Source: Linyphia triangularis | Taxonomy: Eukaryota; Arthropoda; Arachnida; Araneae; Linyphiidae | Length of the DNA: 64,000 nt | NCBI GenBank assembly: GCA_963978545.1 | Contig: OZ021732.1 | Span: 48,122,059 to 48,186,058, forward strand | Reading direction: 5' to 3' | Shown: piece by piece, positions 1 to 64,000 of the stretch | Layout: each line of letters begins with the position of its first letter | Position numbering within the stretch: position 1 is the stretch's first letter | Position numbers and translations under genes: made by a program | Notes under the pieces: generated by a model | Databases searched by the model: none | The model's input: only the letters and a program-made list of their open reading frames with translations | What the model was told of the DNA's origin: nothing

Positions 1-36
1 TACAGCTCCAATTGATTGGCAACTAAAAGTCATCAA

Positions 37-109
37 CTCACCATGTCTTAGCCGGTTTTAGTGCCTGTCTAGCAAACAGGTGAGGACTATTTTGAATATC
101 TTCGAATCT
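37..109 (+). pseudogene. tRNA-Thr relic psiA (L1)
   Basis: 5' half and anticodon arm of tRNA-Thr remain, with a loop change (CTAGCAA); the T arm and B box are lost. Confidence 0.75.
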
Positions 110-175
110 GAATGTAATTATTATACTACTAATAAGAATAATAAGTATAATCGATTGGTAACGGAAAGTTCCCAT

Positions 176-248
176 GGCACCTTGGCTTAGTTGGAGAAGC
201 GCCTGTCTAGTAAACAGGAGATCACGAGTTCGGATCTCGTCGGTGCCT
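176..248 (+). tRNA. tRNA-Thr(AGT), degenerate
   Basis: L1. 73 nt: one base is missing in the D loop (GGAGAAGC) and the B box is GTTCGGATC. The acceptor 5' strand is GGCACCT, which leaves one mismatch. It is followed by CGT-type spacer without the T6 run, so it may be a pseudogene. Confidence 0.6.
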
Positions 249-379
249 GAATGTTGAAAGCATAAATTTGTTTAAATTCTAAATGTATGCCCAAATATAT
301 TTACGTAAATAAATCTCCACTTAACTATAGTTTTTAATAATACATGCAGCTTAAATTGTTTGCAACTAAAAGTTATCAA

Positions 380-452
380 TGCACCATGGCTTAGCCGGTT
401 AATGTTCCTGTCTAGAAAACAGGTGATGACTATTTTGAATATCTTCGAAGCT
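380..452 (+). pseudogene. tRNA-Thr relic psiA (L2)
   Basis: Diverged psiA copy with anticodon loop CTAGAAA and no usable B box. Confidence 0.7.
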
Positions 453-518
453 AAATGTATTTATTATACTACTAATAAGAATAATAAGTATAATCGATTG
501 GTAGCGGGAAGTTCCCAT

Positions 519-592
519 GGCGCCTTGGCTTAGTTGGTGAAAGCTCCTGTCTAGTAAACAGGAGATCACGAGTTCGAATCTCGTCGGTGCCT
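519..592 (+). tRNA. tRNA-Thr(AGT)
   Basis: L2. Acceptor GGCGCCT has one mismatch at its last pair; D loop GGTGAAAGC. B box GTTCGAATC and T6 terminator are intact. Confidence 0.85.
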
Positions 593-676
593 GAATGTCG
601 AAGGAAATTTTTTGATTATATTCTGAAGGTACGTTAACAACCGCCGCTTCAATTGCTTGGAACTTAAATGTGTCAA

Positions 677-740
677 GGGAGCTGGTTAAAGCACTTGTCT
701 AGTAAACAGGCGATCACGAGTTAGAATATCGTCGGTAAAA
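677..740 (+). pseudogene. tRNA-Thr relic psiB (L2)
   Basis: Lacks the 5' acceptor strand; B box mutated to GTTAGAATA and the 3' end to GGTAAAA. Confidence 0.75.
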
Positions 741-865
741 GAATGTCGAACAAGAATATTTGCTTACATTTTAAATGTATTTCAAAATTGATGTAATTTA
801 TCTCTTTTGACCAATATGCATTGAATTTTAATAAGTATACTCGATTGGTAGCGGAAAGTTAACAC

Positions 866-939
866 GGCGCCGTGGCTTAGTTGGTTAAAGCACCTGTCTT
901 GTAAACAGGAGATCACGAGTTCGAATCTCGTCGGTGCCT
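866..939 (+). tRNA. tRNA-Thr(TGT)
   Basis: L2. Loop CTTGTAA. The acceptor begins GGCGCCG (AGT style) instead of GGCACCG; all stems still pair, with one G-U. Confidence 0.92.
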
Positions 940-1023
940 GAATTTCGAAGGAAATTTTTTGATTATATTCTAAATCTATGTTATCAACCACAGCTCCCTA
1001 TATTGGAAAATAAATATTTCAAA

Positions 1024-1097
1024 GGAGTCGTGGCTTAGCTGGTTAAAGCGCCTGTCTCGTAAACAGGAGATCACCTGTTCAAATCTCGTCGGTGCCT
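1024..1097 (+). tRNA. tRNA-Thr(CGT)
   Basis: L2. Matches the U6 CGT copy (7728), including its T-stem mismatches. Confidence 0.7.
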
Positions 1098-1229
1098 GAA
1101 TGTTGAAAGCAAAATTTTGCTGAAATTCTGAATGTATGCCTAAATAAATTTACTAAAATAAATCTCCTCTTAACTCTACTTTTTAATTATACATACAGCT
1201 CCAATTGATTGGCAACTAAAAGTCATCAA

Positions 1230-1302
1230 CTCACCATGGCTTAGCCGGTTTTAGTGCCTGTCTAGTAAACAGGTGAGGACTATTTTAATATCTTCGAATC
1301 TG
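1230..1302 (+). pseudogene. tRNA-Thr relic psiA (L3)
   Basis: Usual psiA form with a one-base deletion in the lost T-arm region; it precedes the AGT gene at 1368. Confidence 0.7.
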
Positions 1303-1367
1303 AATGTAATTATTATACTACTTATAAGAATAATAAGTATAATCGATTGGTAACGGGAAGTTCACAT

Positions 1368-1441
1368 GGCGCCGTGGCTTAGTTGGTCAAAGCGCCTGTC
1401 TAGTAAACAGGAGATCACGAGTTCGAATATCGTCGGTGCCT
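1368..1441 (+). tRNA. tRNA-Thr(AGT)
   Basis: L3. The last B-box base is changed (GTTCGAATA), which also opens the innermost T-stem pair. It is the last plus-strand gene before the inversion, with its T6 run at the junction. Confidence 0.8.
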
Positions 1442-1463
1442 GAATGTCGAAGGAAATTTTTTC

Positions 1464-1489
1464 GCATGTTTACTAGACAACCAGCTCCC
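1464..1489 (-). pseudogene. Truncated psiB relic at inversion junction
   Basis: Minus-strand psiB with an internal deletion between the D arm and anticodon arm, cut off at the end of its anticodon arm by the junction. Confidence 0.75.
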
Positions 1490-1573
1490 TTGACACATTT
1501 AAGTTAAAAGCAATTGAAGTGGTGGTTGTTAACGTACCTTCAGAATATAATCAAAAAATTTCCTTCGACATTC

Positions 1574-1647
1574 AGGCACCGACGAGATTCGAACTCGTGA
1601 TCTCCTGTTTACTAGACAGGCGCTTTGACCAACTAAGCCACGGCGCC
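1574..1647 (-). tRNA. tRNA-Thr(AGT)
   Basis: M1. Matches the U1 AGT reference (3988) on the opposite strand, with 5' flank and T6 run present. Confidence 0.94.
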
Positions 1648-1918
1648 ATGGGAACTTCCCGTTACCAATCGATTATACTTATTATTCTTATAAGTAGTAT
1701 AATAATTACATTCAGATTCGAAGATATTCAAAATAGTCCTCACCTGTTTACTAGACAGGCACTAAAACCGGCTAAGCCATGGTGAGTTGATGACTTTTAG
1801 TTGCCAATCAATTGGAGCTGTATGTATAATTAAAAAGTAGAGTTAAGAGGAGATTTATTTTAGTAAATTTATTTAGGCATACATTCAGAATTTCAGCAAA
1901 ATCTTGCTTTCAACATTC

Positions 1919-1992
1919 AGGCACCGACGAGATTTGAACAGGTGATCTCCTGTTTACGAGACAGGCGCTTTAACCAGCTAAGCCACGACTCC
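1919..1992 (-). tRNA. tRNA-Thr(CGT)
   Basis: M2, last gene of a 503 bp unit. Matches the U6 CGT copy. Confidence 0.7.
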
Positions 1993-2076
1993 TTTGAAAT
2001 ATTTATTTTCTAATATAGGGAGCTGTGGTTGTTAACATAGATTTAGAATATAATCAAAAAATTTAATTCGAAATTC

Positions 2077-2150
2077 AGGCACTGACGAGATTCGAACTCG
2101 TGATCTCCTGTTTACTAGACAGGAGCTTTGACCAACTAAGCCACGGCGCC
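2077..2150 (-). tRNA. tRNA-Thr(AGT)
   Basis: M2. First gene of a 503 bp unit. One acceptor mismatch (3' strand CAGTGCC) and AAGCTCC after the D loop. Confidence 0.85.
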
Positions 2151-2421
2151 ATGGGAACTTCCCGTTACCAATCGATTATACTTATTATTCTTATTAGTAG
2201 TATAATAATTACATTCAGATTCGAAGATATTCAAAATAGTCCTCACCTGTTTACTAGAAAGGCACTAAAACCGGCTAAGCCATGGTGAGTTGATGACTTT
2301 TAGTTGCCAATCAATTGGAGCTGTATGTATAATTAAAAAGTAGAGTTAAGAGGAGATTTATTTTAGTTAATTTATTTAGGCATACATTCAGAATTTCATC
2401 AAAATTTTGCTTTCAACATTC

Positions 2422-2495
2422 AGGCACCGACGAGATTTGAACAGGTGATCTCCTGTTTACGAGACAGGCGCTTTAACCAGCTAAGCCACGACTCC
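2422..2495 (-). tRNA. tRNA-Thr(CGT)
   Basis: M3, 850 bp unit. Matches the U6 CGT copy. Confidence 0.7.
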
Positions 2496-2579
2496 TTTGA
2501 AATATTTATTTTCCAATATAGGGAGCTGTGGTTGTTAACATAAATTTAGAATATAATCAAAAAATTTACTTCGAAATTC

Positions 2580-2653
2580 AGGCACCGACGAGATTCGAAC
2601 TCGTGATCTCCTGTTTACAAGACAGGTGCTTTAACCAACTAAGCCACGGTGCC
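2580..2653 (-). tRNA. tRNA-Thr(TGT)
   Basis: M3. Matches the U6 TGT reference (7570). Confidence 0.94.
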
Positions 2654-2778
2654 GTGTTAACTTTCCGCTACCAATCGAGTATACTTATTAAAATTCAATG
2701 CATATTGGTCAAAAGAGATAAATTACATCAATTTTGAAATACATTTAAAATGTAAGCAAATATTCTTGTTCGACATTC

Positions 2779-2842
2779 TTTTACCGACGATATTCTAACT
2801 CGTGATCGCCTGTTTACTAGACAAGTGCTTTAACCAGCTCCC
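2779..2842 (-). pseudogene. tRNA-Thr relic psiB (M3)
   Basis: Same form as at 6531, reversed. Confidence 0.75.
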
Positions 2843-2926
2843 TTGACACATTTAAGTTCCAAGCAATTGAAGCGGTGGTTGTTAACGTACCATCAGAATA
2901 TAATCCAAAAATTCCCTTCGACATTC

Positions 2927-3000
2927 AGGCACCGACGAGATTCGAACTCGTGATCTCCTGTTTACTAGACAGGCGCTTCGACCAACTAAGCCACGGCGCC
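2927..3000 (-). tRNA. tRNA-Thr(AGT)
   Basis: M3. GGTCGAAGC D-loop variant; followed by a T5 rather than a T6 run. Confidence 0.92.
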
Positions 3001-3271
3001 ATGGGAACGTCCCGTTACCAATCGATTATACTTATTATTCTTATTAGTAGTATAATAATTACATTCAGTTTCGAAGATATTCAAAATAGTCCTCACCTGT
3101 TTACTTGACAGGAACTAAAACCGGCTAAGACATGGTGAGTTGATGACTTTTAGTTGCCAATCAATTGGAGCTGTATGTATAATTAAAAAGTAGAGTTAAG
3201 AGGAGATTTATTTTAGTAAATTTATTTAGGCATACATTCAGAATTTCAGCAAAATTTTGCTTTCAACATTC

Positions 3272-3345
3272 AGGCACCGACGAGATTTGAACAGGTGATC
3301 TCCTGTTTACGAGACAGGCGCTTTAACCAGCTAAGCCACGACTCC
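3272..3345 (-). tRNA. tRNA-Thr(CGT)
   Basis: M4, whose AGT gene is lost at the junction. Matches the U6 CGT copy. Confidence 0.7.
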
Positions 3346-3428
3346 TTTGAAATATTTATTTTCCAATATAGGGACTGTGGTTGTTAACATAGATTTAGAA
3401 TATAATCAAAAAATTTAATTCGAAATTC

Positions 3429-3502
3429 AGGCACCGACGAGATTCGAACTCGTGATCTCCTGTTTACAAGACAGGTGCTTTAACCAACTAAGCCACGGCG
3501 CC
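3429..3502 (-). tRNA. tRNA-Thr(TGT)
   Basis: M4. AGT-style acceptor GGCGCCG, as at 866. Downstream spacer has a one-base deletion. Confidence 0.92.
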
Positions 3503-3627
3503 GTGTTAACTTTCCGCTACCAATCGAGTATACTTATTAAAATTCAATGCATATTGGTCAAAAGAGATAAATTACATCAATTTTGAAATACATTTAAAAT
3601 GTAAGCAAATATTCTTGTTCGACATTC

Positions 3628-3691
3628 TTTTACCGACGATATTCTAACTCGTGATCGCCTGTTTACTAGACAAGTGCTTTAACCAGCTCCC
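3628..3691 (-). pseudogene. tRNA-Thr relic psiB (M4)
   Basis: Complete psiB copy, the last tRNA-like sequence before the right inversion junction. Confidence 0.75.
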
Positions 3692-3957
3692 TTGACACAT
3701 TTAAGTTCCAAGCAATTGAAGCGGCGGTTGTTAACGTACCTTCAGCGTAATCGATTATATTTATAAATTTACTAAAATAAATCTCCTCTTAACTCTACTT
3801 TTTAATTATACATACAGCTCCAATTGATTGGCAACTAAAAGTCATCAACTCACCATGGCTTAGCCGGTTTTAGTGCCTGTCTAGTAAACAGGTGAGGACT
3901 ATTTTGAATATCTTCGAATCTGAATGTAATTATTATACTACTTATAAGAATAATAAG

Positions 3958-3976
3958 TATAATCGATTGGTAACGG
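3958..3976 (+). promoter_or_regulatory. Upstream TATA/ATTGG element of AGT genes
   Basis: TATAATCGATTGGTAACGG at -30 to -12 of the AGT gene. It is present at the same distance before nearly every AGT gene, and as TATACTCGATTGGTAGCGG before TGT genes (e.g. 7540-7558). ATTGG is a reversed CCAAT motif. CGT genes have only a looser TATATTGG about 25 bp upstream. A role in polymerase III initiation is inferred from position and conservation. Confidence 0.5.
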
Positions 3977-3987
3977 GAAGTTCCCAT

Positions 3988-4061
3988 GGCGCCGTGGCTT
4001 AGTTGGTCAAAGCGCCTGTCTAGTAAACAGGAGATCACGAGTTCGAATCTCGTCGGTGCCT
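3988..4061 (+). tRNA. tRNA-Thr(AGT), reference copy
   Basis: U1. Cytoplasmic threonine tRNA; the AGU anticodon, with A34 normally edited to inosine, reads ACU, ACC and ACA. Acceptor GGCGCCG pairs with CGGTGCC (one G-U). D stem GCTT/AAGC, anticodon stem CCTGT/ACAGG with loop CTAGTAA, and T stem ACGAG/CTCGT all pair. A box TGGCTTAGTTGG and B box GTTCGAATC fit the polymerase III consensus. 74 nt, no intron, no encoded CCA, discriminator T. It closely resembles animal tRNA-Thr(AGU). A T6 run lies 16-21 bases downstream. First AGT gene of the main array. Confidence 0.96.
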
Positions 4062-4076
4062 GAATGTCGAAGGAAA

Positions 4077-4082
4077 TTTTTT
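4077..4082 (+). terminator. Pol III T6 terminator
   Basis: Six T residues at +16 to +21 after the tRNA. The same run follows nearly all AGT and TGT genes. AGT genes with the GGTCGAAGC D loop have T5, and AGT genes of 503 bp units usually have an additional TTTT at +4. Confidence 0.8.
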
Positions 4083-4334
4083 GATTATATTCTGAAGGTA
4101 CGTTAACAACCACCACTTCAATTGCTTTTAACTTAAATGTGTCAAGGGAGCTGGTTAAAGCACTTGTCTAGTAAACATGCGATCACGAGTTAGAATATGG
4201 CCTGTAAAAGAATGTCGAACAAGAATATTTGCTTACATTTTAAATGTATTTCAAAATTGATGTAATTAATCTCTTTTGACCAATATGCATTGAATTTTAA
4301 TAAGTATACTCGATTGGTAGCGGAAAGTTCCCAT

Positions 4335-4408
4335 GGCACCGTGGTTAAGTTGGTTAAAGGACCTGACTTGTAAACAGGAGATCACGAGTTCGAATCTCGT
4401 CGGTGCCT
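4335..4408 (+). tRNA. tRNA-Thr(TGT), degenerate
   Basis: U1. D arm GTTA/AAGG no longer pairs and the anticodon stem has a mismatch next to the loop (CCTGA). Acceptor, T arm and B box are intact. Possible pseudogene; the same form occurs in U8, U10 and U15. Confidence 0.6.
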
Positions 4409-4492
4409 GAATTCCGAAGGAAATTTTTTGATTATATTCTAAATCTATGTTAACAACCACAGCTCCCTATATTGGAAACTAAATATTTCAAA

Positions 4493-4566
4493 GGAGTCGT
4501 GGCTTAGCTGGTTAAAGCGCCTGTCTCGTAAACAGGAGATCACCTGTTCGAATCTCGCCGGTGCCT
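4493..4566 (+). tRNA. tRNA-Thr(CGT)
   Basis: U1. B box GTTCGAATC, with an additional T-stem change (CTCGC). One base is deleted just after the gene. Confidence 0.65.
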
Positions 4567-4836
4567 AATGTTGAAAGCAAAATTTTGCTGAAATTCTGAA
4601 AGTATGCCTAAATAAATTTACTAAAATAAATCTCCTCTTAACTCTACTTTTTAATTATACATACAGCTCCAATTGATTGGCAACTAAAAGTCATCAACTC
4701 ACCATGTCTTAGCCGGTTTTAGTGCCTGTCTAGCAAACAGGTGAGGACTATTTTGAATATCTTCGAATCTGAATGTAATTATTATACTACTAATAAGAAT
4801 AATAAGTATAATCGATTGGTAACGGAAACTTCCCAT

Positions 4837-4910
4837 GGCACCTTGGCTTAGTTGGTCAAAGCGCCTGTCTAGTAAACAGGAGATCACGAGTTCGGATCTC
4901 GTCGGTGCCT
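4837..4910 (+). tRNA. tRNA-Thr(AGT)
   Basis: U2. Acceptor GGCACCT has one mismatch and the B box is GTTCGGATC, as in L1 (176). It is followed by CGT-type spacer, with no TGT or CGT gene before the next AGT gene. Confidence 0.75.
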
Positions 4911-5180
4911 GAATGTTGAAAGCATAAATTTGTTTAAATTCTAAATGTATGCCAAAATATATTTACGTAAATAAATCTCCTCTTAACTATAGTTTTTAAT
5001 AATACATACAGCTTAAATTGTTTGCAACTAAAAGTTATCAATGCACCATGGCTTAGCCGGTTAAAGTTCCTGTCTAGAAAACAGGTGATGACTATTTTGA
5101 ATATCTTCGAAGCTAAATGTATTTATTATACTACTAATAAGAATAATAAGTATAATCGATTGGTAGCGGAAAGTTCCCAT

Positions 5181-5254
5181 GGCGCCGTGGCTTAGTTGGT
5201 GAAAGCTCCTGTCTAGTAAACAGGAGATCACGAGTTCGAATCTCGTCGGTGCCT
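5181..5254 (+). tRNA. tRNA-Thr(AGT)
   Basis: U3. D loop GGTGAAAGC as in L2 (519); acceptor intact here. Confidence 0.92.
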
Positions 5255-5338
5255 GAATGTCGAAGGAAATTTTTTGATTATATTCTGAAGGTACGTTAAC
5301 AACCACCGCTTCAATTGCTTGGAACTTAAATGTGTCAA

Positions 5339-5402
5339 GGGAGCTGGTTAAAGCACTTGTCTAGTAAACAGGCGATCACGAGTTAGAATATCGTCGGTAA
5401 AA
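5339..5402 (+). pseudogene. tRNA-Thr relic psiB (U3)
   Basis: Standard psiB; here the next gene is a chimeric CGT rather than a TGT gene. Confidence 0.75.
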
Positions 5403-5527
5403 GAATGTCGAACAAGAATATTTGCTTACATTTTAAATGTATTTCAAAATTGATGTAATTTATCTCTTTTGACCAATATGCATTGAATTTTAATAAGTAT
5501 ACTCGATTGGTAGCGGAAAGTTCCCTT

Positions 5528-5601
5528 GGCACCGTGGCTTAGCTGGTTAAAGCGCCTGTTTCGTAAACAGGAGATCACCTGTTCGAATCTCGTCGGTGCC
5601 T
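5528..5601 (+). tRNA. tRNA-Thr(CGT), chimeric
   Basis: U3. 5' flank and acceptor GGCACCG of a TGT gene joined to the body of a CGT gene (loop TTCGTAA, ACCTG T-stem strand). The acceptor pairs fully, unlike other CGT genes. The join lies within the tRNA and deletes one 158 bp module. Confidence 0.75.
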
Positions 5602-5870
5602 GAATGTCGAAAGCAAAATTTTGCTGAAATTCTGAATGTATGCCTAAATAAATTTACTAAATTAAATCTCCTCTTAACTCTACTTTTTAATTATACATAC
5701 AGATCCAATTGATTGGCAACTAAAAGTCATCAACTCACCATGGCTTAGCCGGTTTAGTGCCTGTCTAGTAAACAGGTGAGAACTATTTTGAATATCTTCG
5801 AATCTGAATGTAATTATTATACTACTAATAAGAATAATAAGTATAATCGATTTTAACGGGAAGTTCCCAT

Positions 5871-5944
5871 GGGGCCGTGGCTTAGTTGGTCAAAGCGCCT
5901 GTCTAGTAAACAGGAGATCACGAGTTCGAATCTCGTCGGTGCCT
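5871..5944 (+). tRNA. tRNA-Thr(AGT)
   Basis: U4, 503 bp unit. Acceptor GGGGCCG has one mismatch. The upstream element is damaged (CGATTTTAACGG). Confidence 0.8.
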
Positions 5945-6446: not shown

Positions 6447-6530
6447 GAATGTCGAAAGAAATTTTTTGATTATATTCTGAAGGTACGTTAACAACCACCG
6501 CTTCAAATCCTTGGAACTTAAATGTGTCAA

Positions 6531-6594
6531 GGGAGCTGGTTAAAGCACTTGTCTAGTAAACAGGCGATCACGAGTTAGAATATCGTCGGTAAAA
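6531..6594 (+). pseudogene. tRNA-Thr relic psiB (representative)
   Basis: Aligns with tRNA-Thr from AGCTGGTT in the D loop to the 3' end. The acceptor 5' strand and D-stem 5' half are missing, the B box is GTTAGAATA, and the 3' end GGTGCCT has become GGTAAAA. The loop still reads CTAGTAA. A copy lies at +158 to +221 from the AGT start in every unit that has a TGT slot; a variant with ACATGC and ATGGCCTG occurs before the degenerate TGT genes. Confidence 0.8.
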
Positions 6595-6719
6595 GAATGT
6601 CGAACAAGAATATTTGCTTACATTTTAAATGTATTTCAAAATTGATGTAATTTATCTCTTTTGACCAATATGCATTGAATTTTAATAAGTATACTCGATT
6701 GGTAGCGGAAAGTTAACAC

Positions 6720-6793
6720 GGCACCGTGGTTTAGTTGGTTAAAGCACCTGTCTTGTAAACAGGAGATCACGAGTTCGAATCTCGTCGGTGCCT
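6720..6793 (+). tRNA. tRNA-Thr(TGT)
   Basis: U5. One D-stem change (GTTT) leaves a G-U pair; otherwise as U6. Confidence 0.92.
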
Positions 6794-6877
6794 GAATTTC
6801 GAAGGAAATTTTTTGATTATATTCTAAATCTATGTTAACAACCACAGCTCCCTATATTGGAAAATAAATATTTCAAA

Positions 6878-6951
6878 GGAGTCGTGGCTTAGCTGGTTAA
6901 AGCGCCTGTCTCGTAAACAGGAGATCACCTGTTCAAATCTCGTCGGTGAAT
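6878..6951 (+). tRNA. tRNA-Thr(CGT), degenerate
   Basis: U5. The 3' acceptor strand is damaged (CGGTGAA). Confidence 0.5.
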
Positions 6952-7222
6952 GAATGTTGAAAGCAAAATTTTGCTGAAATTCTGAATGTATACCTAAATA
7001 AATTTACTAAAATAAATCTCCTTTTAATTCTACATTTTAATTATACATACAGCTCCAATTGATTGGCAACTAAAAGTCATCAACTCACCATGTCTTAGCC
7101 GGTTTTAGTTCCTGTCAAGTAAACAGGTGAGGACTATTTTGAATATCTTCGAAACTGAATGTAATTATTATACTACTAATAAGAATAATAAGTATAATCG
7201 ATTGGTAACGGGACGTTCCCAT

Positions 7223-7296
7223 GGCGCCGTGGCTTAGTTGGTCGAAGCGCCTGTCTAGTAAACAGGAGATCACGAGTTCGAATCTCGTCGGTGCCT
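7223..7296 (+). tRNA. tRNA-Thr(AGT)
   Basis: U6, 850 bp. GGTCGAAGC D-loop variant; T5 terminator. Confidence 0.93.
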
Positions 7297-7539
7297 GAAT
7301 ATCGAAGGGAATTTTTGGATTATATTCTGATGGTACGTTAACAACCACCGCTTCAATTGCTTGGAACTTAAATGTGTCAAGGGAGCTGGTTAAAGCACTT
7401 GTCTAGTAAACAGGCGATCACGAGTTAGAATATCGTCGGTAAAAGAATGTCGAACAAGAATATTTGCTTACATTTTAAATGTATTTCAAAATTGATGTAA
7501 TTTATCTCTTTTGACCAATATGCATTGAATTTTAATAAG

Positions 7540-7558
7540 TATACTCGATTGGTAGCGG
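7540..7558 (+). promoter_or_regulatory. Upstream TATA/ATTGG element of TGT genes
   Basis: TATACTCGATTGGTAGCGG at -30 to -12, the TGT-gene counterpart of the AGT element at 3958. Confidence 0.5.
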
Positions 7559-7569
7559 AAAGTTAACAC

Positions 7570-7643
7570 GGCACCGTGGCTTAGTTGGTTAAAGCACCTG
7601 TCTTGTAAACAGGAGATCACGAGTTCGAATCTCGTCGGTGCCT
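7570..7643 (+). tRNA. tRNA-Thr(TGT), reference copy
   Basis: U6. Cytoplasmic threonine tRNA expected to read ACA and ACG. Acceptor GGCACCG pairs perfectly with CGGTGCC; D stem GCTT/AAGC, anticodon stem CCTGT/ACAGG with loop CTTGTAA, T stem ACGAG/CTCGT. A box TGGCTTAGTTGG and B box GTTCGAATC intact; T6 at +16. Preceded by psiB and followed 158 bp on by the CGT gene. Confidence 0.96.
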
Positions 7644-7727
7644 GAATTTCGAAGTAAATTTTTTGATTATATTCTAAATCTATGTTAACAACCACAGCTC
7701 CCTATATTGGAAAATAAATATTTCAAA

Positions 7728-7801
7728 GGAGTCGTGGCTTAGCTGGTTAAAGCGCCTGTCTCGTAAACAGGAGATCACCTGTTCAAATCTCGTCGGTGCC
7801 T
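7728..7801 (+). tRNA. tRNA-Thr(CGT), reference copy
   Basis: U6. Loop CTCGTAA gives anticodon CGU, reading ACG. D arm GCTT/AAGC and anticodon arm are perfect and the A box is TGGCTTAGCTGG. Acceptor GGAGTCG against CGGTGCC has one A-G mismatch and two G-U pairs. T stem ACCTG against CTCGT has two mismatches. B box GTTCAAATC still fits the consensus. Nearly all CGT genes here share these defects. T4 at +18 may terminate. It may be a weakly expressed gene or a relic family; the isoacceptor identity is clear. Confidence 0.72.
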
Positions 7802-7818
7802 GAATGTTGAAAGCAAAA

Positions 7819-7822
7819 TTTT
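7819..7822 (+). terminator. T4 run after CGT gene
   Basis: Four T residues at +18 to +21, often within the palindrome AGCAAAATTTTGCT. It is weaker than the T6 run after AGT and TGT genes. Confidence 0.5.
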
Positions 7823-8072
7823 GATGAAATTCTGAATGTATGCCTAAATAAATTTACTAAAATAAATCTCCTCTTAACTCTACTTTTTAATTATACATAC
7901 AGCTCCAATTGATTGGCAACTAAAAGTCATCAACTCACCATGGCTTAGCCGGTTTTAGTGCCTTTCTAGTAAACAGGTGAGGACTATTTTGAATATCTTC
8001 GAATCTGAATGTAATTATTATACTACTAATAAGAATAATAAGTATAATCGATTGGTAACGGGAAGTTCCCAT

Positions 8073-8146
8073 GGCGCCGTGGCTTAGTTGGTCAAAGCGC
8101 CTGTCTAGTAAACAGGAGATCACGAGTTCGAATCTCGTCGGTGCCT
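8073..8146 (+). tRNA. tRNA-Thr(AGT)
   Basis: U7, 503 bp unit. Body matches U1; downstream spacer is TGT type. Confidence 0.94.
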
Positions 8147-8230
8147 GAATTTCGAATTAAATTTTTTGATTATATTCTAAATCTATGTTAACAACCACAG
8201 CTCCCTATATTAGAAAATAAATATTTCAAA

Positions 8231-8304
8231 GGAGTCGTGGCTTAGCTGGTTAAAGCGCCTGTCTCGTAAACAGGAGATCACCTGTTCAAATCTCGTCGGT
8301 GCCT
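8231..8304 (+). tRNA. tRNA-Thr(CGT)
   Basis: U7. Matches U6 CGT; 158 bp after AGT. Confidence 0.7.
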
Positions 8305-8575
8305 GAATGTTGAAAGCAAAATTTTGCTGAAATTCTGAATGTATGCCTAAATAAATTTACTAAAATAAATCTCCTCTTAACTCTACTTTTTAATTATACA
8401 TACAGCTCCAATTGATTGGCAACTAAAAGTCATCAACTCACCATGGCTTAGCCGGTTTTAGTGCCTGTCTAGTAAACAGGTGAGGACTATTTTGAATATC
8501 TTCGAATCTGAATGTAATTATTATACTACTTATAAGTATAATAAGTATAATCGATTGGTAACGGGAAGTTCCCAT

Positions 8576-8649
8576 GGCGCCGTGGCTTAGTTGGTCAAAG
8601 CGCCTGTCTAGTAAACAGGAGATCACGAGTTCGAATCTCGTCGGTGCCT
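8576..8649 (+). tRNA. tRNA-Thr(AGT)
   Basis: U8, 850 bp. Matches U1. Confidence 0.95.
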
Positions 8650-8922
8650 GAATGTCGAAGGAAATTTTTTGATTATATTCTGAAGGTACGTTAACAACCA
8701 CCACTTCAATTGCTTTTAACTTAAATGTGTCAAGGGAGCTGGTTAAAGCACTTGTCTAGTAAACATGCGATCACGAGTTAGAATATGGCCTGTAAAAGAA
8801 TGTCGAACAAGAATATTTGCTTACATTTTAAATGTATTTCAAAATTGATGTAATTAATCTCTTTTGACCAATATGCATTGAATTTTAATAAGTATACTCG
8901 ATTGGTAGCGGAAAGTTCCCAT

Positions 8923-12291: not shown

Positions 12292-12365
12292 GGCGCCGTG
12301 GCTTAGTTGGTCAAAGCGCCTGTCTAGTAAACATGAGATCACGAGTTCGAATCTCGTCGGTGCCT
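12292..12365 (+). tRNA. tRNA-Thr(AGT)
   Basis: U12, 850 bp. Anticodon stem ACATG has one mismatch, shared with U17 and U20. Confidence 0.85.
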
Positions 12366-12638
12366 GAATGTCGAAGGAAATTTTTTGATTATATTCTGAA
12401 GGTCCGTTAACAACCACCGCTTCAATTGCTTGGAACTTAAATGTGTCAAGGGAGCTGGTTAAAGCACTTGTCTAGTAAACAGGCGATCTCGAGTTAGAAT
12501 ATCGTCGGTAAAAGAATGTCGAACAAGAATATTTGCTTACATTTTAAATGTATTTCAAAATTGATGTAATTTATCTCTTTTGACCAATATGCAATGAATT
12601 TTAATAAGTATACTCGATTGGTAGCGGAAAGTTAACAC

Positions 12639-12712
12639 GGCACCGTGGCTTAGTTGGTTAAAGCACCTGTCTTGTAAACAGGAGATTACGAGTTCGAATC
12701 TCGTCGGTGCCT
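12639..12712 (+). tRNA. tRNA-Thr(TGT)
   Basis: U12. Variable loop AGATT; all stems pair. Confidence 0.93.
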
Positions 12713-12796
12713 GAATTTCGAAGGACATTTTTTGATTATATTCTAAATCTATGTCAACAACCACAACTCCCTATATTGGAAAATAAATATTTCAAA

Positions 12797-12870
12797 GGTG
12801 TCTTGGCTTAGCTGGTTAAAGCGACTGTCTCGTAAACAGGAGATCACCTGTTCAAATCTCGTCGGTGCCT
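12797..12870 (+). tRNA. tRNA-Thr(CGT), degenerate
   Basis: U12. Acceptor GGTGTCT and anticodon stem ACTGT, each adding a mismatch. Confidence 0.5.
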
Positions 12871-13141
12871 GAATGTTGAAAGCAAAATTTTGCTGAAATT
12901 CTGAATGTATGCCTAAATAAATTTACTAAAATAAATCTCCTCTTAACTCTACTTTTTAATTATACATACAGCTCCAATTGATTGGCAACTAAAAGTCATC
13001 AACTCAATATGGCTTAGCCGGTTTTAGTGCCTGTCTAGTAAACAGGTGAGAACTATTTTGAATATCTTCGAATCTGAATGTAATTATTATACTACTAATA
13101 AGAATAATAAGTATAATCGATTGGTAACGGGAAGTTCCCAT

Positions 13142-58103: not shown

Positions 58104-58376
58104 GAATGTCGAAGGGAATTTTTGGATTATATTCTGATGGTACGTTAACAACCACCGCTTCAATTGCTTGGAACTTAAATGTGTCAAGGGAGCTGGTTAA
58201 AGCACTTGTCTAGTAAACAGGCGATCACGAGTTAGAATATCGTCGGTAAAAGAATGTCGAACAAAAATATTTGCTTACATTTTAAATGTATTTCAAAATT
58301 GATGTAATTTATCTCTTTTGACCAATATGCATTGAATTTTAATAAGTATACTCGATTGGTAGCGGAAAGTTCCCAC

Positions 58377-58450
58377 GGCACCGTGGATTAGTTGGTTAAA
58401 GCACCTGTTTTGTAAACAGGAGATCACTAGTTCGAATCTGGTCGGTGCCT
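58377..58450 (+). tRNA. tRNA-Thr(TGT)
   Basis: U69. As U27, but the T stem is ACTAG/CTGGT: the G-G mismatch has become a G-U pair, so the stem closes again. Confidence 0.83.
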
Positions 58451-58534
58451 GAATTTCGAAGGAAATTTTTTGATTATATTCTAAATCTATGTTAACAACC
58501 ACAGCTCCCTATATTGGAAAATAAATATTTCAAA

Positions 58535-58608
58535 GGAGTCGTGGCTTAGTTGGTTAAAGCACCTGTCTTGTAAACAGGAGATCACGAGTTCGAATCTCGT
58601 CGGTGCCT
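58535..58608 (+). tRNA. tRNA-Thr(TGT), slot T' chimera
   Basis: U69. Matches U11 T'. Confidence 0.82.
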
Positions 58609-58692
58609 GAATTTCGAATTAAATTTTTTGATTATATTCTAAATCTATGTTAACAACCACAGCTCACTATATTGGAAAATAAATATTTCAAA

Positions 58693-58766
58693 GGAGTCGT
58701 GGCTTAGCTGGTTAAAGCGCCTGTCTCGTAAACAGGAGATCACCTGTTCGAATCTCGTCGGTGCCT
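58693..58766 (+). tRNA. tRNA-Thr(CGT)
   Basis: U69. B box GTTCGAATC. Confidence 0.73.
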
Positions 58767-59037
58767 GAATGTTGAAAGCAAAATTTTGCTGAAATTCTGA
58801 ATGTATGCCTAAATAAATTTACTAAAATAAATCTCCTCTTAACTCTACTTTTTAATTATACATACAGCTCCAATTGATTGGCAACTAAAAGTCATCAACT
58901 CACCATGGCTTAGCCGGTTTTAGTGCCTGTCTAGTAAACAGGTGAGGACTATTTTGAATATCTTTGAATCTGAATGTAATTATTATACTACTAATAAGAA
59001 TAATAAGTATAATCGATTGGTAACGGGAAGTAACCAT

Positions 59038-59111
59038 GGCGCCGTGGCTTAGTTGGTCAAAGCGCCTGTCTAGTAAACAGGAGATCACGAGTTCGAATCT
59101 CGTCGGTGCCT
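59038..59111 (+). tRNA. tRNA-Thr(AGT)
   Basis: U70, 850 bp. Body matches U1; from here on spacers diverge more. Confidence 0.95.
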
Positions 59112-59384
59112 GAATGTCGAAGGAAATTTTTTGATTATATTCTGAAAGTACGTTAACAACCACAGCTTCAATTGCTTGGAACTTAAATGTGGCAAGGGAG
59201 CTGGTTAAAGCACTTGTCTAGTAAACAGGCGATCACGAGTTGGAATATCGTCGGTAAAAGAATGTCGAACAAGAATATTTGCTTACATTTTAAATGTATT
59301 TCAAAATTGATGTAATTTATCTCTTTTGACCAATATGCATTGAATTTTAATAAGTATACTCGATTGGTAGAGGAAAGTTCCCAC

Positions 59385-59458
59385 GGCACCGTGGCTTAGT
59401 TGGTTAAAGCACCTGTCTTGTAAACAGGAGATCACGAGTTCGAATTTCGTCGGTGCCT
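59385..59458 (+). tRNA. tRNA-Thr(TGT)
   Basis: U70. T-stem 3' strand TTCGT with B box GTTCGAATT; the last box base is lost. Confidence 0.8.
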
Positions 59459-59542
59459 GAATTTCGATGGAAATTTTTTGATTATATTCTAAATCTATGT
59501 TAATAACCACAGCTCCCTATATTGGAAAATAAATATTTCATA

Positions 59543-59616
59543 GGAGTCTTGGCTTAGCTGGTTAAAGCGACTGTCTCGTAAACAGGAAATCACCTGTTCG
59601 AATTTCGTCGGTGCCT
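59543..59616 (+). tRNA. tRNA-Thr(CGT), degenerate
   Basis: U70. GGAGTCT acceptor, ACTGT anticodon stem, GTTCGAATT B box. Confidence 0.5.
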
Positions 59617-59887
59617 GAATGTTGAAAGCAAAATTTTGCTGAAATTCTGAATGTATGCCTAAATAAATTTACTAAAATAAATCTCCTCTTAACTCTACTT
59701 TTTAATTATACATACAGCTCCAATTGATTGGCAACTAAAAGTCATCAACTCACCATGGCTTAGCCGGTTTTAGTGCCTGTCTAGTAAACAGGTGAGGACT
59801 ATTTTGAATATCTTCGAATCTGAATGTAATTATTATACTACTAATAAGAATAATAAGTATAATAGATTGGTAACGGGAAGTTCCCAT

Positions 59888-59961
59888 GGCGCCAAGGCCT
59901 AGTTGTTCAAAGCGCCTGTCTAGTAAACAGAAGATCACGAGTTCGAATCTCGTCGGTGCCT
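59888..59961 (+). tRNA. tRNA-Thr(AGT), degenerate
   Basis: U71, 850 bp. Acceptor GGCGCCA, A box AGGCCTAGTTGT and anticodon stem ACAGA; several mismatches. Confidence 0.6.
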
Positions 59962-60234
59962 GAATGTCGAAGGGAATTTTTGGATTATATTCTGATGGTA
60001 CGTTAACAACCACCGCTTCAATTGCTTGGAACTTAAATGTGTCAAGGGAGCTGGTTAAAGCACTTGTCTAGTAAACAGGCGATCACGAGTTAGAATATCG
60101 TCGGTAAAAGAATGTCGAACAAGAATATTTGCTTACATTTTAAATGTATTTCAAAATTGATGTAATTTATCTCTTTTGACCAATATGCATTGAATTTTAA
60201 TAAGTATACTCGATTGGTAGCGGAAAGTTCCCAC

Positions 60235-60308
60235 GGCACCGTGGATTAGTTGGTTAAAGCACCTGTTTTGTAAACAGGAGATCACGAGTTCGAATCTCGT
60301 CGGTGCCT
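60235..60308 (+). tRNA. tRNA-Thr(TGT)
   Basis: U71. GATT D stem, TTTGTAA loop; T stem intact. Confidence 0.85.
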
Positions 60309-60392
60309 GAATTTCGAAGGAAATTTTTTGATTTTATTCTAAATCTATGTTAACAACCACAGCTCCCTATATTGGAAAATAAATATTTCAAA

Positions 60393-60466
60393 GGAGTCGT
60401 GGCTTAGTTGGTTAAAGCACCTGTCTTGTAAACAGGAAATCACGAGTTCGAATCTCGTCAGTGCCT
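60393..60466 (+). tRNA. tRNA-Thr(TGT), chimera in the CGT slot
   Basis: U71. T'-like gene (GGAGTCG acceptor, TGT body, 3' strand CAGTGCC) followed directly by CGT-type spacer. The unit has lost its CGT gene by a join within or just after the tRNA. Confidence 0.72.
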
Positions 60467-60737
60467 GAATGTTGAAAGCAAAATTTTGCTGAAATTCTGA
60501 ATGTATGCCTAAATAAATTTACTAAAATAAATCTCCTCTTAACTCTACTTTTTAATTATACATACAGCTCCAATTGATTGGCAACTAAAAGTCATCAACT
60601 CACCATGGCTTAGCCGGTTTTAGTGCCTGTCTAGTAAACAGGTGAGAACTATTTTGAATATCTTCGAATCTGAATGTAATTATTATACTACTAATAAGAA
60701 TAATAAGTATAATCGATTGGTAAAGGGAAGTTCCCAT

Positions 60738-60811
60738 TTCGCCGTGGCTTAGTTGGTTAAAGCGCCTGTCTAGTAAACAGGAGATCACGAGTTCGAATCT
60801 CGTCGGTGCCT
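60738..60811 (+). tRNA. tRNA-Thr(AGT), acceptor-damaged
   Basis: U72, 503 bp. Begins TTCGCCG, losing the two outer acceptor pairs; D loop GGTTAAAGC. Confidence 0.65.
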
Positions 60812-60895
60812 GAATTTCGAATTAAATTTTTTGATTATATTCTAAATCTATGTTAACAACCACAGCTCCCTATATTGGAAAATAAATATTTCAAA

Positions 60896-60969
60896 GGAGT
60901 CGTGGCTTAGCTGGTTAAAGCGCCTGTCTCGTAAACAGGAGATCACCTGTTCGAATCTCGTCGGTGCCT
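60896..60969 (+). tRNA. tRNA-Thr(CGT)
   Basis: U72. B box GTTCGAATC. Confidence 0.73.
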
Positions 60970-61240
60970 GAATGTTGAAAGCAAAATTTTGCTGAAATTC
61001 TGAATGTATGCCTAAATAAATTTACTAAAATAAATCTCCTCTTAACTCTACTTTTTAATTATACATACAGCTCCAATTGATTGGCAACTAAAAGTCATCA
61101 ACTCACCGTGGCTTAGCCGGTTTTAGTGCCTGTCTAGTAAACAGGTGAGGACTATTTTGAATATTTTTGAATCTGAATGTAATTATTATACTACTAATAA
61201 GAATAATAAGTATAATCGATTGGTAACGGGAAGTTCCCAT

Positions 61241-61314
61241 GGCGCCGTGGCTTAGTTGGTCAAAGCGCCTGTCTAGTAAACAGGAGATCACGTGTTCGAA
61301 TCTCGTCGGTGCCT
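61241..61314 (+). tRNA. tRNA-Thr(AGT)
   Basis: U73, 850 bp. T stem ACGTG has one mismatch. Confidence 0.87.
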
Positions 61315-61587
61315 GAATGTCGAAGGAAATTTTTTGATTATATTCTGAAGGTCCGTTAACAACCACCGCTTCAATTGCTTGGAACTTAAATGTGTCAAGG
61401 GAGCTGGTTAAAGCACTTGTCTAGTAAACAGGCGATCACGAGTTAGAATATCGTCGGTAAAAGAATGTCGAACAAGAATATTTGCTTACATTTTAAATGT
61501 ATTTCAAAATTGATGTAATTTATCTCTTTTGACCAATATGCATTGAATTTTAATAAGTATACTCGATTGGTAGCGGAAAGTTCCCAC

Positions 61588-61661
61588 GGCACCGTGGCTT
61601 AGTTGGTTAAAGCACCTGTCTTGTAAACAGGAGATCACGAGTTCGAATCTCGTCGGTGCCT
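61588..61661 (+). tRNA. tRNA-Thr(TGT)
   Basis: U73. Matches U6 TGT. Confidence 0.95.
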
Positions 61662-61745
61662 GAATTTCGATGGAAATTTTTTGATTATATTCTAAATCTG
61701 TGTTAATAACCAACGCTCCCTATATTGGAAAATAAATATTTCATA

Positions 61746-61819
61746 GGAGTCTTGGCTTAGCTGGTTAAAGCGACTGTCTCGTAAAGAGGAAATCACCTGT
61801 TCGAATTTCGTCGGTGCCT
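61746..61819 (+). tRNA. tRNA-Thr(CGT), degenerate
   Basis: U73. As U70 with a further change after the loop (AAAGAGG). Confidence 0.45.
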
Positions 61820-62090
61820 GAATGTTGAAAGCAAAATTTTGCTTAAATTCTGAATGTATGCCTAAATAAATTTACTAAAATAAATCTCCTCTTAACTCTA
61901 CTTTTTAATTATACATACAGCTCCAATTGATTAACAACTAAAAGTCATCAACTCACCATGGCTTAGCCGGTTTTAGTGCCTGTCTAGTAAACAGGTGAGG
62001 ACTATTTTGAATATCTTCGAATCTGAATGTAATTATTATACTACTAATAAGAATAATAAGTATAATCGATTGGTAACGGGAAGTTCCCAT

Positions 62091-62164
62091 GGCGCCGTGG
62101 CCTAGTTGTTCAAAGCGCCTGTCTAGTAAACAGAAGATCACGAGTTCGAATCTCGTCGGTGCCT
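62091..62164 (+). tRNA. tRNA-Thr(AGT)
   Basis: U74, the unit with the SINE. A box TGGCCTAGTTGT and ACAGA anticodon stem, close to U71. Confidence 0.75.
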
Positions 62165-62248
62165 GAATGTCGAAGGAAATTTTTTGATTATATTCTGAAG
62201 GTACGTTAACAACCACCGCTTCAATTGCTTGGAACTTAAATGTGTCAA

Positions 62249-62312
62249 GGGAGCTTGTTAAAGCACTTGTCTAGTAAACAGGCGATCACGAGTTAGAATA
62301 TCCTCGGTAAAA
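62249..62312 (+). pseudogene. tRNA-Thr relic psiB (U74)
   Basis: Last tRNA-like sequence before the SINE insertion; carries the ATCCTCGG variant. Confidence 0.75.
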
Positions 62313-62341
62313 GAATGTCGAACAAGAATATTTGCTTATAT

Positions 62342-62355
62342 TTTAAATGTATTTC
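62342..62355 (+). repeat. Target-site duplication, left copy
   Basis: TTTAAATGTATTTC, identical to 62537-62550. Other units have this sequence once, which fixes the insertion boundaries. Confidence 0.92.
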
Positions 62356-62536
62356 GCCGACCAAACGGTATAGTGGTTAGAGTGCTAGCTTCTAGACCGC
62401 GAGGTTGCGGGTTCGAGTCCCGTGTTGGCATGGGTGTTTGTAAGTGTATGTTGGCTTGTCTAATGACGAATTTTTCGGCGCATTATAGCCCTCGTGTTGC
62501 TGACGGCGCCAGATAATCTGAATACAACCAACCAAC
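62356..62536 (+). mobile_element. tRNA-derived SINE insertion
   Basis: 181 bp element in the spacer between psiB and the TGT gene of U74, absent from every other unit seen. Its 5' 75 bases (62356-62430) resemble a tRNA: acceptor GCCGACC against TGTTGGC, an A-box-like TATAGTGGTTAG, and T arm GCGGG-TTCGAGT-CCCGT holding a perfect B box. The anticodon stem does not pair, so no isotype can be assigned. An unrelated body follows, with GGCGC and GCGCC able to pair, ending in an AACCAACCAAC tail. The 14 bp duplication indicates LINE-mediated insertion. I cannot name the SINE family. Confidence 0.9.
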
Positions 62537-62550
62537 TTTAAATGTATTTC
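62537..62550 (+). repeat. Target-site duplication, right copy
   Basis: Perfect 14 bp repeat of 62342-62355, after which the normal unit sequence resumes. Confidence 0.92.
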
Positions 62551-62632
62551 AAAATTGATGTAATTAATTTCTTTTGACCAATATGCATTGAATTTTAATA
62601 AGTATACTCGATTGGTAGCGGAAAGTTAACAC

Positions 62633-62706
62633 GGCACCGTGGCTTAGTTGGTTAAAGCACATGTCTTGTAAACAGGAGATCACGAGTTCGAATCTCTTCG
62701 GTGCCT
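62633..62706 (+). tRNA. tRNA-Thr(TGT), degenerate
   Basis: U74, downstream of the SINE. Anticodon stem CATGT and T stem CTCTT each have one mismatch; boxes intact. Confidence 0.7.
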
Positions 62707-62790
62707 GAATTTCGAAGGAAATTTTTTGATTATATTCTAAATCTATGTTAACAACTACAGCTCCCTATATTGGAAAATAAATATTTCAAA

Positions 62791-62864
62791 GGAGTCGTGG
62801 CTTAGCTGGTTAAAGCGCCTGTCTCGTAAACAGGAGATCACCTGTTCGAAACTCGTTGGTGCCT
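62791..62864 (+). tRNA. tRNA-Thr(CGT)
   Basis: U74. GTTCGAAAC B box and TGGTGCC 3' strand. Confidence 0.6.
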
Positions 62865-63135
62865 GAATGTTGAAAGCAGAATTTTGCTGAAATTCTAAAT
62901 GTATGCCTAAATAAATTTACTTAAATAAATCTCCTCTTAACTCTACTTTTTAATTATACATACAGCTCCAATTGATTGGCAACTAAAAGTCATCAACTCA
63001 CCATGACTTAGCCGGTTTTAGTGCCTGTCTAGTAAACAGGTGAGGACTATTTTGAATATCTTCGAATCTGAATGTAATTATTATACTACTAATAAGAATA
63101 ATAAGTATAATCGCTTGGTAAGGGGAAGTTCCCAT

Positions 63136-63209
63136 GGCGCCGTGGCTTAGTTGGTCAAAGCGCCTGTCTAGTAAACAGGAGATCACGAGTTCGAATCTCG
63201 TCGGTGCCT
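63136..63209 (+). tRNA. tRNA-Thr(AGT)
   Basis: U75, 503 bp unit. Body matches U1; upstream element CGCTTGGTAAGG. Confidence 0.93.
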
Positions 63210-63293
63210 GAATTTCGAATTAAATTTTTTGATTATATTCTAAATCTATGTTAACAACCACAGCTCCCTATATTAGAAAATAAATATTTCAAA

Positions 63294-63367
63294 GGAGTCG
63301 TGGCTTAGCTGGTTAAAGCGCCTGTCTCGTAAACAGGAGATCACCTGTTCAAATCTCGTCGGTGCCT
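63294..63367 (+). tRNA. tRNA-Thr(CGT)
   Basis: U75. Matches U6 CGT. Confidence 0.7.
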
Positions 63368-63638
63368 GAATGTTGAAAGCAAAATTTTGCTGAAATTCTG
63401 AATGTATGCCTAAATAAATTTACTAAAATAAATCTCCTCTTAACTCTACTTTTTAATTATACATACAGCTCCAATTGATTGGCAACTAAAAGTCATCAAC
63501 TCACCATGGCTTAGCCGGTTTTAGTGCCTGTCTAGTAAACAGGTGAGGACTATTTTGAATATCTTCGAATCTGAATGTAATTATTATACTACTTATAAGA
63601 ATAATAAGTATAATCGATTGGTAACGGGAAGTTTCCAT

Positions 63639-63712
63639 GGCACCGTGGCTTAGTTGGTCAAAGCGCCTGTCTAGTAAACAGGAGATCACGAGTTCGAATC
63701 TCGTCGGTGCCT
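63639..63712 (+). tRNA. tRNA-Thr(AGT)
   Basis: U76. TGT-style acceptor GGCACCG on an AGT body; pairs perfectly. Confidence 0.94.
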
Positions 63713-63796
63713 GAATGTCGAAGGAAATTTTTTGATTATATTCTGAAGGTACGTTAACAACCACCGCTTCAATTGCTTGGAACTTAAATGTGTCAA

Positions 63797-63860
63797 GGGA
63801 GCTGGTTAAAGCACTTGTCTAGTAAACATGCGATCACGAGTTAGAATATGGCCTGTAAAA
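63797..63860 (+). pseudogene. tRNA-Thr relic psiB (U76)
   Basis: ACATGC/ATGGCCTG variant, the form that precedes degenerate TGT genes. Confidence 0.75.
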
Positions 63861-63985
63861 GAATGTCGAACAAGAATATTTGCTTACATTTTAAATGTAT
63901 TTTAAAATTGATGTAATTAATCTCTTTTGACCAATATGCATTGAATTTTAATAAGTATACTCGATTGGTAGCGGAAAGTTCCCAT

Positions 63986-64000
63986 GGCACCGTGGTTAAG
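63986..64000 (+). tRNA. tRNA-Thr(TGT), cut by window end
   Basis: U76. Only GGCACCGTGGTTAAG is present; the start matches the degenerate TGT class of U45. The array continues beyond the window. Confidence 0.7.

Follow-up and report, generated by a model that had tools for sequence, protein, structure and literature searches.

A satellite-like array of tRNA-Thr genes concentrated at one locus of the spider Linyphia triangularis, with parallel tRNA-Lys and tRNA-Arg arrays

The 64,000-nucleotide stretch of the Linyphia triangularis genome analyzed here (contig OZ021732.1, positions 48,122,059 to 48,186,058 of assembly GCA_963978545.1, in the following termed the window) lies inside a tandem array of threonine tRNA genes that is almost confined to one locus and in which a minority of the copies carry intact internal promoters and terminators. 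We consider it most probable, with a rough probability of 0.6, that this array is a satellite derived from a tRNA gene, in which a promoter-competent minority of copies is embedded and the mass of copies is silent or redundant. Genome searches refer to the assembly of 1.349 Gb in 369 contigs, in which the window occupies C13:48122059-48186058; C13 appears to correspond to autosome 11.

ARAGORN called 221 tRNA genes in the window, 213 on the plus and eight on the minus strand, and every one of them is a tRNA-Thr (83 AGT, 69 TGT, 68 CGT and one GGT). With nhmmer and five module types, 376 Thr-like modules were found between positions 1 and 64000, which are array interior in plus orientation, many of them belonging to two degenerate types, and 1,259 were found in a contiguous 264 kb that includes the window. 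In the latter, 658 of the 686 ARAGORN calls are Thr, the other 28 comprising 17 Lys, two Ala, one Met, one Asn and seven calls of undetermined anticodon. Changes of the first anticodon base that still specify threonine are the rule in the array, while other or undetermined anticodons are limited to these 28 calls; the former may well be tolerated because every variant still means threonine. Of the 375 spacings between neighboring modules of the window, the 370 covered are all at most 242 nt, and the window constitutes a homogeneous tRNA gene cluster in the sense of one amino acid and adjacent tRNA genes (tDNAs) less than 1000 nt apart. Against the Rfam tRNA model, applied to the first 14 kb, TGT modules score up to 75.9 bits and AGT modules up to 70.9 bits, while CGT modules mostly lie near 48 bits.

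The modules are organized in a higher-order repeat of 850 bp with the order AGT, pseudo-A, TGT, CGT, pseudo-B, as became apparent when one unit was compared with the window by blast, and certain units lack a module or have one repeated. An example on the plus strand (12292-13141) starts with a tRNA-Thr(AGT) body (12292-12365, from ARAGORN and consensus comparison), followed by the degenerate pseudo-A, found by nhmmer, in which the acceptor stem is lost and the consensus body is about 76% identical to that of AGT (12440-12513), a tRNA-Thr(TGT) body of 75.9 bits with a T6 run behind it (12639-12712), a tRNA-Thr(CGT)-like module that scores 36.2 bits in this copy and has three broken pairs in its commonest form (12797-12870), and pseudo-B, likewise found by nhmmer, with a degenerate T-arm and a consensus body about 73% identical to that of AGT (13003-13076). 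The identity of 45 aligned units to the first consensus ranges from 97.3 to 99.5% (a divergence of 0.5-2.7%), whereas the module bodies inside one unit are 73-95% alike; the multimer is more alike than its monomers, as in satellites with higher-order repeats. For this alignment 51 long hits yielded 47 usable starts, two more being dropped at less than 93% identity, and the four hits left out from the beginning were two on the minus strand, one of 75.6% identity and one of 849 bp. Above the 850-bp repeat, longer super-units are present with offsets of about 1.7, 4.06 and 9.3 kb. A block of the array is inverted at 1460-3745 (minus strand) and is 98.7% identical to a plus-strand block at about 6477-8770. 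An exact fold-back artefact at position 1460 was considered and rejected, as the left neighbor matched only piecewise (94.9-98.2%). Outside the window, about 20 kb of array are inverted at C13:48.068-48.088 Mb.

Both ends of the window lie inside the array. Exact matches to the anticodon arm begin on C13 at 47,930,332, and samples of 450 bp contain array sequence at 48.30, 48.36, 48.48, 48.50, 48.52 and 48.54 Mb but no longer at 48.58 Mb (48,580,000), giving a span of at least 610 kb (at least 47.930-48.540 Mb). The sample at 48,540,000 is 88% identical to the array and is devoid of a tRNA call, and that at 48.36 Mb features an Ile-type anticodon inside a Thr module. The original prediction, made from the window alone, of a purely threonine array that continues beyond both ends is thereby borne out. 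A 21-base pattern of the Thr anticodon arm has 1,378 matches in the genome and none when reversed, which excludes chance; an apparently complete set of ten lies on C1-C12, which leaves up to 1,368 for C13 and the contigs after it. The pattern of the downstream flank of the module yielded 781 matches (two for the reversed control), six of which are on C1-C12, all others being on C13 or on contigs that follow it. We conclude that the module is a local satellite, and its dispersal through the genome in the manner of a short interspersed nuclear element (SINE) was rejected on the same count.

Large tandem arrays are difficult to assemble, and the assembly might in principle overstate the true length of the array. 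We regard such an expansion as extremely improbable because the assembly rests on about 63x PacBio HiFi coverage with a quality value (QV) of 59.5 and a contig N50 of 6.25 Mb (PMC11904403), 264 kb are free of any N, and the units not only differ from their consensus by 0.5-2.7% but also form distinct super-units and are interrupted by transposable element insertions and inversions, for which a looped assembly can hardly be the source.

The question of how many copies are intact as tRNA genes was approached by counting pairs in those modules that have a CTNGTAA loop and match in 40 or more of 74 bases. The window contains 352 such modules (as compared to 376 with nhmmer). All 21 pairs are intact in 89 of the 352, namely in 57 AGT and 32 TGT modules and in none of 76 CGT modules. 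In the left 180 kb the proportions are 20 of 236 for AGT, 31 of 121 for TGT and 59 of 132 for CGT; the pseudo modules have an AGT loop and are counted under AGT. A run of at least four T follows within 60 bases in 225 of 234 fully paired copies from five regions, most commonly as T6 and most commonly at a distance of 15 bases. Cloverleaf, A and B boxes and a near T-run are combined in 86 of the 352 window modules (56 AGT, 30 TGT), while the other 266 lack at least one of these features of a functional nuclear tRNA gene. Judged by these features, the intact AGT and TGT copies could in principle be transcribed by RNA polymerase III (Pol III). The earlier count of 232 tRNA-Thr copies thus comes close to the 221 ARAGORN calls, but holds for recognizable rather than for intact genes, since only about one quarter of the modules (89 of 352) are fully paired.

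Ordinary tRNA-Thr genes exist elsewhere in the genome. Four of the ten anticodon-arm matches outside C13 are one identical, intact tRNA-Thr(AGT) gene with unrelated flanks and two further bodies are this gene with one base changed, so that an ordinary gene set is available for AGT. The remaining four are decayed or hybrid and all have a downstream flank of the array type. One such hybrid resides at C8:6240586-6240906; its Thr(AGT) body is intact up to the T-arm, and its 3' acceptor end and flank are of the pseudo-A type. One base separates the array AGT consensus from the dispersed gene, position 21 being C in the commonest array AGT body and T in the dispersed genes. Among the matches on C1-C12 there is one TGT, in a decayed copy, and no CGT; the pattern would miss genes that have a different anticodon stem.

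Threonine is not the only amino acid concerned, as at least three isotypes are arrayed in this genome. On C10, pieces of 8.0 and 7.0 kb contain 55 tRNA calls, 54 of them Lys and one a Thr-anticodon variant, in a Lys(TTT) array with a unit of about 221 bp. Judged from samples rather than from continuous reading, it begins at 54,843,055 and continues to 55,215,500 or beyond (at least 372 kb), and samples taken at 54.82 and 55.24 Mb lack it. A genome search with the Lys anticodon-arm pattern yielded 1,135 matches, 12 of them on C1-C9, and none for the reversed control. On C12, 9.0 kb contain 35 calls, 32 of which are Arg(TCG) and three are variants with a Leu anticodon (TAG); the unit measures about 224 bp, and in samples, again not read continuously, Arg modules occur at 27.34-27.405 Mb (at least 65 kb) and are absent at 27.42 Mb, while no left end of this array was encountered. 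C10 and C12 probably represent chromosomes 9 and 10. It is conceivable, though in our view rather unlikely, that the tRNA repertoire of the spider is partly sorted into chromosome-specific Pol III mega-arrays for single amino acids (Thr on chromosome 11, Lys on 9, Arg on 10 and perhaps more) that serve as separately tunable tRNA banks, the copy number drifting by unequal exchange and whole arrays being switched on in oocytes, embryos or glands. If so, threonine decoding would be fully covered by the Thr array, since it contains AGT and TGT genes and, in the left part, also intact CGT genes.

The parallel arrays bear directly on the suggestion, made in the original prediction, that the array meets a very high demand for threonine. 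Aggregate-gland glue is threonine-rich. A dosage effect for threonine-rich secretions such as silk glue or mucin, with a very high need for threonyl-tRNA, could draw on the facts that the host spins silk and that AGT, TGT and CGT anticodons all occur, CGT being fully paired in 59 of 132 cases in the left 180 kb. However, Lys and Arg genes are arrayed as well and the phenomenon is thus not specific for threonine, the majority of the tested modules are not fully paired, tRNA levels in zebrafish are not predicted by gene copy number (PMC11574265), and the excess of tRNA-Thr and tRNA-Ser in oyster is not matched by proteome composition (PMC9679248). We therefore consider dosage for threonine-rich secretions very unlikely. 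The broader idea of threonine supply loses ground for similar reasons, namely the Lys and Arg arrays, the dispersed Thr(AGT) genes, the three quarters of modules that are not fully paired and the lack of consistent constraint on recent copies (see below); it is weakened only, since the older module types have kept conserved bodies.

Diversity among the 45 aligned units provides a view on recent selection. Nucleotide diversity (π) amounts to 0.0155 for AGT, 0.0372 for TGT, 0.0242 for CGT, 0.0358 for pseudo-A and 0.0284 for pseudo-B bodies, compared to 0.0182 for the spacers, and larger sets, consisting of the full-length ungapped segments (654 of 1,337), are equally mixed for bodies versus spacers. 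Of 21 private mutations in the AGT and TGT bodies, 13 disrupt a base pair, a proportion at least as high as the 47% expected by chance. Constraint on the Thr tRNA bodies at short time scales is thus absent or faint. Together with the 850-bp higher-order repeat and the degenerate modules, this favors the satellite-like expansion that had originally been offered as the alternative to threonine supply.

Several observations weigh against a tRNA-derived satellite that is largely inert. In recent units the diversity of AGT bodies is a little lower than that of the spacers (0.0155 versus 0.0182, and 0.0211 versus 0.0248 in the larger set). On the longer time scale, the consensus bodies of AGT and TGT are 95% identical and their flanks only 76% (upstream) and 85% (downstream), while the bodies of pseudo-A and pseudo-B have decayed to 76% and 73% of AGT; the downstream flanks of these two are 66% and 61% identical to that of AGT. 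When AGT and TGT modules are mixed, the body-to-spacer ratio amounts to 0.54 for the window and to 0.73 for the left 180 kb, and bodies are less diverse than spacers by a factor of 2.1 in the Lys and 3.7 in the Arg array. This older conservation indicates that certain tRNAs were protected longer, either by selection or by conversion anchored in the bodies, and the latter could be part of its source. Private mutations are denser in tRNA-type bodies (30 in 222 sites versus 41 in 628; p 0.005; 2.07-fold in raw counts), although the rate ratio falls to 1.5 (one-sided p 0.053) once base composition is stratified; a higher mutation rate in bodies would fit transcription-associated mutation, which we do not claim here. 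Finally, CpG dinucleotides are not depleted in the array (observed/expected 1.09) and there is thus no sign of dense germline methylation. Values from 0.83 to 1.19 in four non-array pieces render CpG depletion uninformative as a clue to methylation.

We regard a stage- or tissue-specific Pol III array as the main rival. The isotype-pure arrays would then be silent in most cells and be switched on together in oocytes, early embryos or glands for bulk tRNA production, similar to the oocyte-type tandem tRNA arrays of Xenopus. In line with this possibility, 86 of 352 window modules have both promoter boxes (A and B) in a fully paired body with a terminator nearby, the bodies of AGT, TGT, Lys and Arg modules have been conserved over long times, and parallel arrays exist for Lys and Arg. 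On the other side, the recent Thr copies lack consistent constraint and only about one in four of the window modules tested has all its pairs, and we see this rival as rather improbable. Even less probable appears a structural role, in which thousands of TFIIIC sites act as a chromatin boundary, in clustering or as a replication fork barrier and promoters rather than products are maintained. Body positions 41-60, covering the 3' anticodon stem, the variable loop and the 5' half of the T-arm, are indeed the least variable 20-base stretch in the window (0.007), but in the left 180 kb the same positions are at 0.066 compared to 0.043 just downstream of the body. Furthermore, pseudo-A and pseudo-B lack a standard B-box sequence and are nevertheless amplified in nearly every unit.

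Returning to the tRNA-derived satellite as the preferred explanation, its history may be pictured as follows. An ordinary tRNA-Thr gene would have been multiplied in tandem together with its flanks on one autosome, and the monomers would then have diverged into five module types. Blocks of five modules were possibly re-amplified as the 850-bp higher-order repeat and its super-units, accompanied by inversions and retrotransposon insertions, with unequal crossing-over and gene conversion as the putative driving forces. The same process would be at work on the tRNA-Lys and tRNA-Arg genes of L. triangularis. The promoter-competent minority is probably largely silent or redundant as well, and the mass of the array would add little to the tRNA pool, being either redundant with the dispersed genes or silenced as are the tRNA genes on zebrafish chromosome 4 and in the Arabidopsis clusters. 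In zebrafish, clusters that comprise tRNA genes by the thousands show almost complete methylation and most predicted tRNA genes are inaccessible (PMC11574265), and for the Arabidopsis clusters a largely silenced state has been described (PMC10701932).

The array is interrupted by foreign sequence. Among the parts read, gaps without array sequence measure 5.8, 10.2 and 21.8 kb, about 15.5 kb near 47.938-47.954 Mb are free of modules and pattern matches, and two gaps are bounded by direct repeats resembling long terminal repeats (LTRs), which are 98.1% and 99.5% identical. An LTR retrotransposon at C13:48019699-48026600, with LTR-like repeats of 99.5% identity, contains an open reading frame of the Gypsy type for 1,247 amino acids whose best named relatives are found in orb-weaver spiders. 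A run of open reading frames in a gap in the left part of the array (C13:47942109-47946299) looks, on first impression, like an element of the Polinton or adintovirus type. Inside the window, one non-array insertion was identified, a tRNA-headed SINE of 181 bp in a spacer (62356-62536, plus strand), flanked by 14-bp target duplications (TTTAAATGTATTTC) at 62342-62355 and 62537-62550. A first look at the whole genome yielded 185,289 tRNA candidates, and elements like this SINE may therefore be abundant. The COX1 gene on contig C369 is 100% identical over 98% to that of L. triangularis. On the chromosomes, COX1-like matches at C4:56130191-56131126, C10:70750066-70750317 and C3:95327957-95328106 are probably nuclear copies of mitochondrial DNA.

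As tRNA gene clusters for one amino acid are already known, the Thr array does not represent a new kind of element. Within the open-licence literature we found no description of a comparably long array whose higher-order repeat combines three isoacceptors with two degenerate modules, accompanied by separate arrays for other amino acids, and the main text of the Linyphia genome paper contains no word beginning with tRNA (PMC11904403). The spider thus offers an animal case in which at least three tRNA genes have given rise to separate satellite-like arrays, one of them with a clear higher-order structure, that still contain recognizable genes. It opens direct questions about the relation of tRNA gene number to supply, about silencing or use of Pol III genes in satellites and about whether functional modules can be propagated next to broken ones by concerted evolution. 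It also calls for caution with high counts from tRNA scans, as tRNA-Thr genes number 339 in the flat oyster and 791 in the hard clam (in the oyster without specific clustering; PMC9679248), and the arrangement of such genes needs to be checked before demand is read from their number.

Tandem tRNA arrays are familiar from several eukaryotes. The tRNA array unit of Xenopus measures 3.18 kb and covers several amino acids. What the oocyte-type arrays of Xenopus share with Linyphia is the tandem arrangement of Pol III genes in an animal genome, and activation of the oocyte-specific tRNA arrays has been described for zygotic genome activation (PMC11500080). The original statement that known arrays mix amino acids was too strong in view of one-amino-acid clusters in Arabidopsis (PMC10701932) and of single-tRNA units such as [R-TCT] among the tandem arrays of Entamoeba (PMC2652664). 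In E. histolytica almost all tRNA genes are arrayed, with short tandem repeats between the genes and no clear pseudogenes (PMC2652664), whereas in Linyphia many modules are degenerate and dispersed genes exist outside the arrays, namely six Thr(AGT) genes, two of them one-base variants, and 12 Lys anticodon-arm matches on C1-C9. In zebrafish, tRNA genes are likewise massed on one chromosome, the megacluster on chromosome 4 accounting for 5,227 of 8,676 predicted genes (PMC11574265), but adjacent tDNA pairs mostly differ in amino acid (PMC2888827), while each Linyphia array is essentially limited to one. The tRNA variable number tandem repeat at human 1q23.3 is also a tandem tRNA repeat of variable copy number, with a unit of 7.3 kb and 9-43 copies (PMC4041453). 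The tRNA-Pro, Tyr-Tyr-Ser and tRNA-Cys clusters of Arabidopsis have in common with the spider array the tandem units for one or two amino acids, the pseudogenes and, presumably, the apparent silencing; the largest of them, however, comprises 27 units in almost 40 kb, compared to at least 610 kb and three Thr anticodons per unit in Linyphia (PMC10701932). Homogeneous tDNA clusters as defined by Bermudez-Santana et al. (2010; PMC2888827) resemble the Thr array in their restriction to one amino acid, the mostly parallel orientation and a spacing far below 1000 nt. Clusters with at least 50 members are exceptional in that survey, whereas Linyphia has up to 1,368 exact anticodon-arm matches on C13 or the contigs after it and a higher-order repeat; the Thr array is an extreme variant of such homogeneous tRNA gene clusters.

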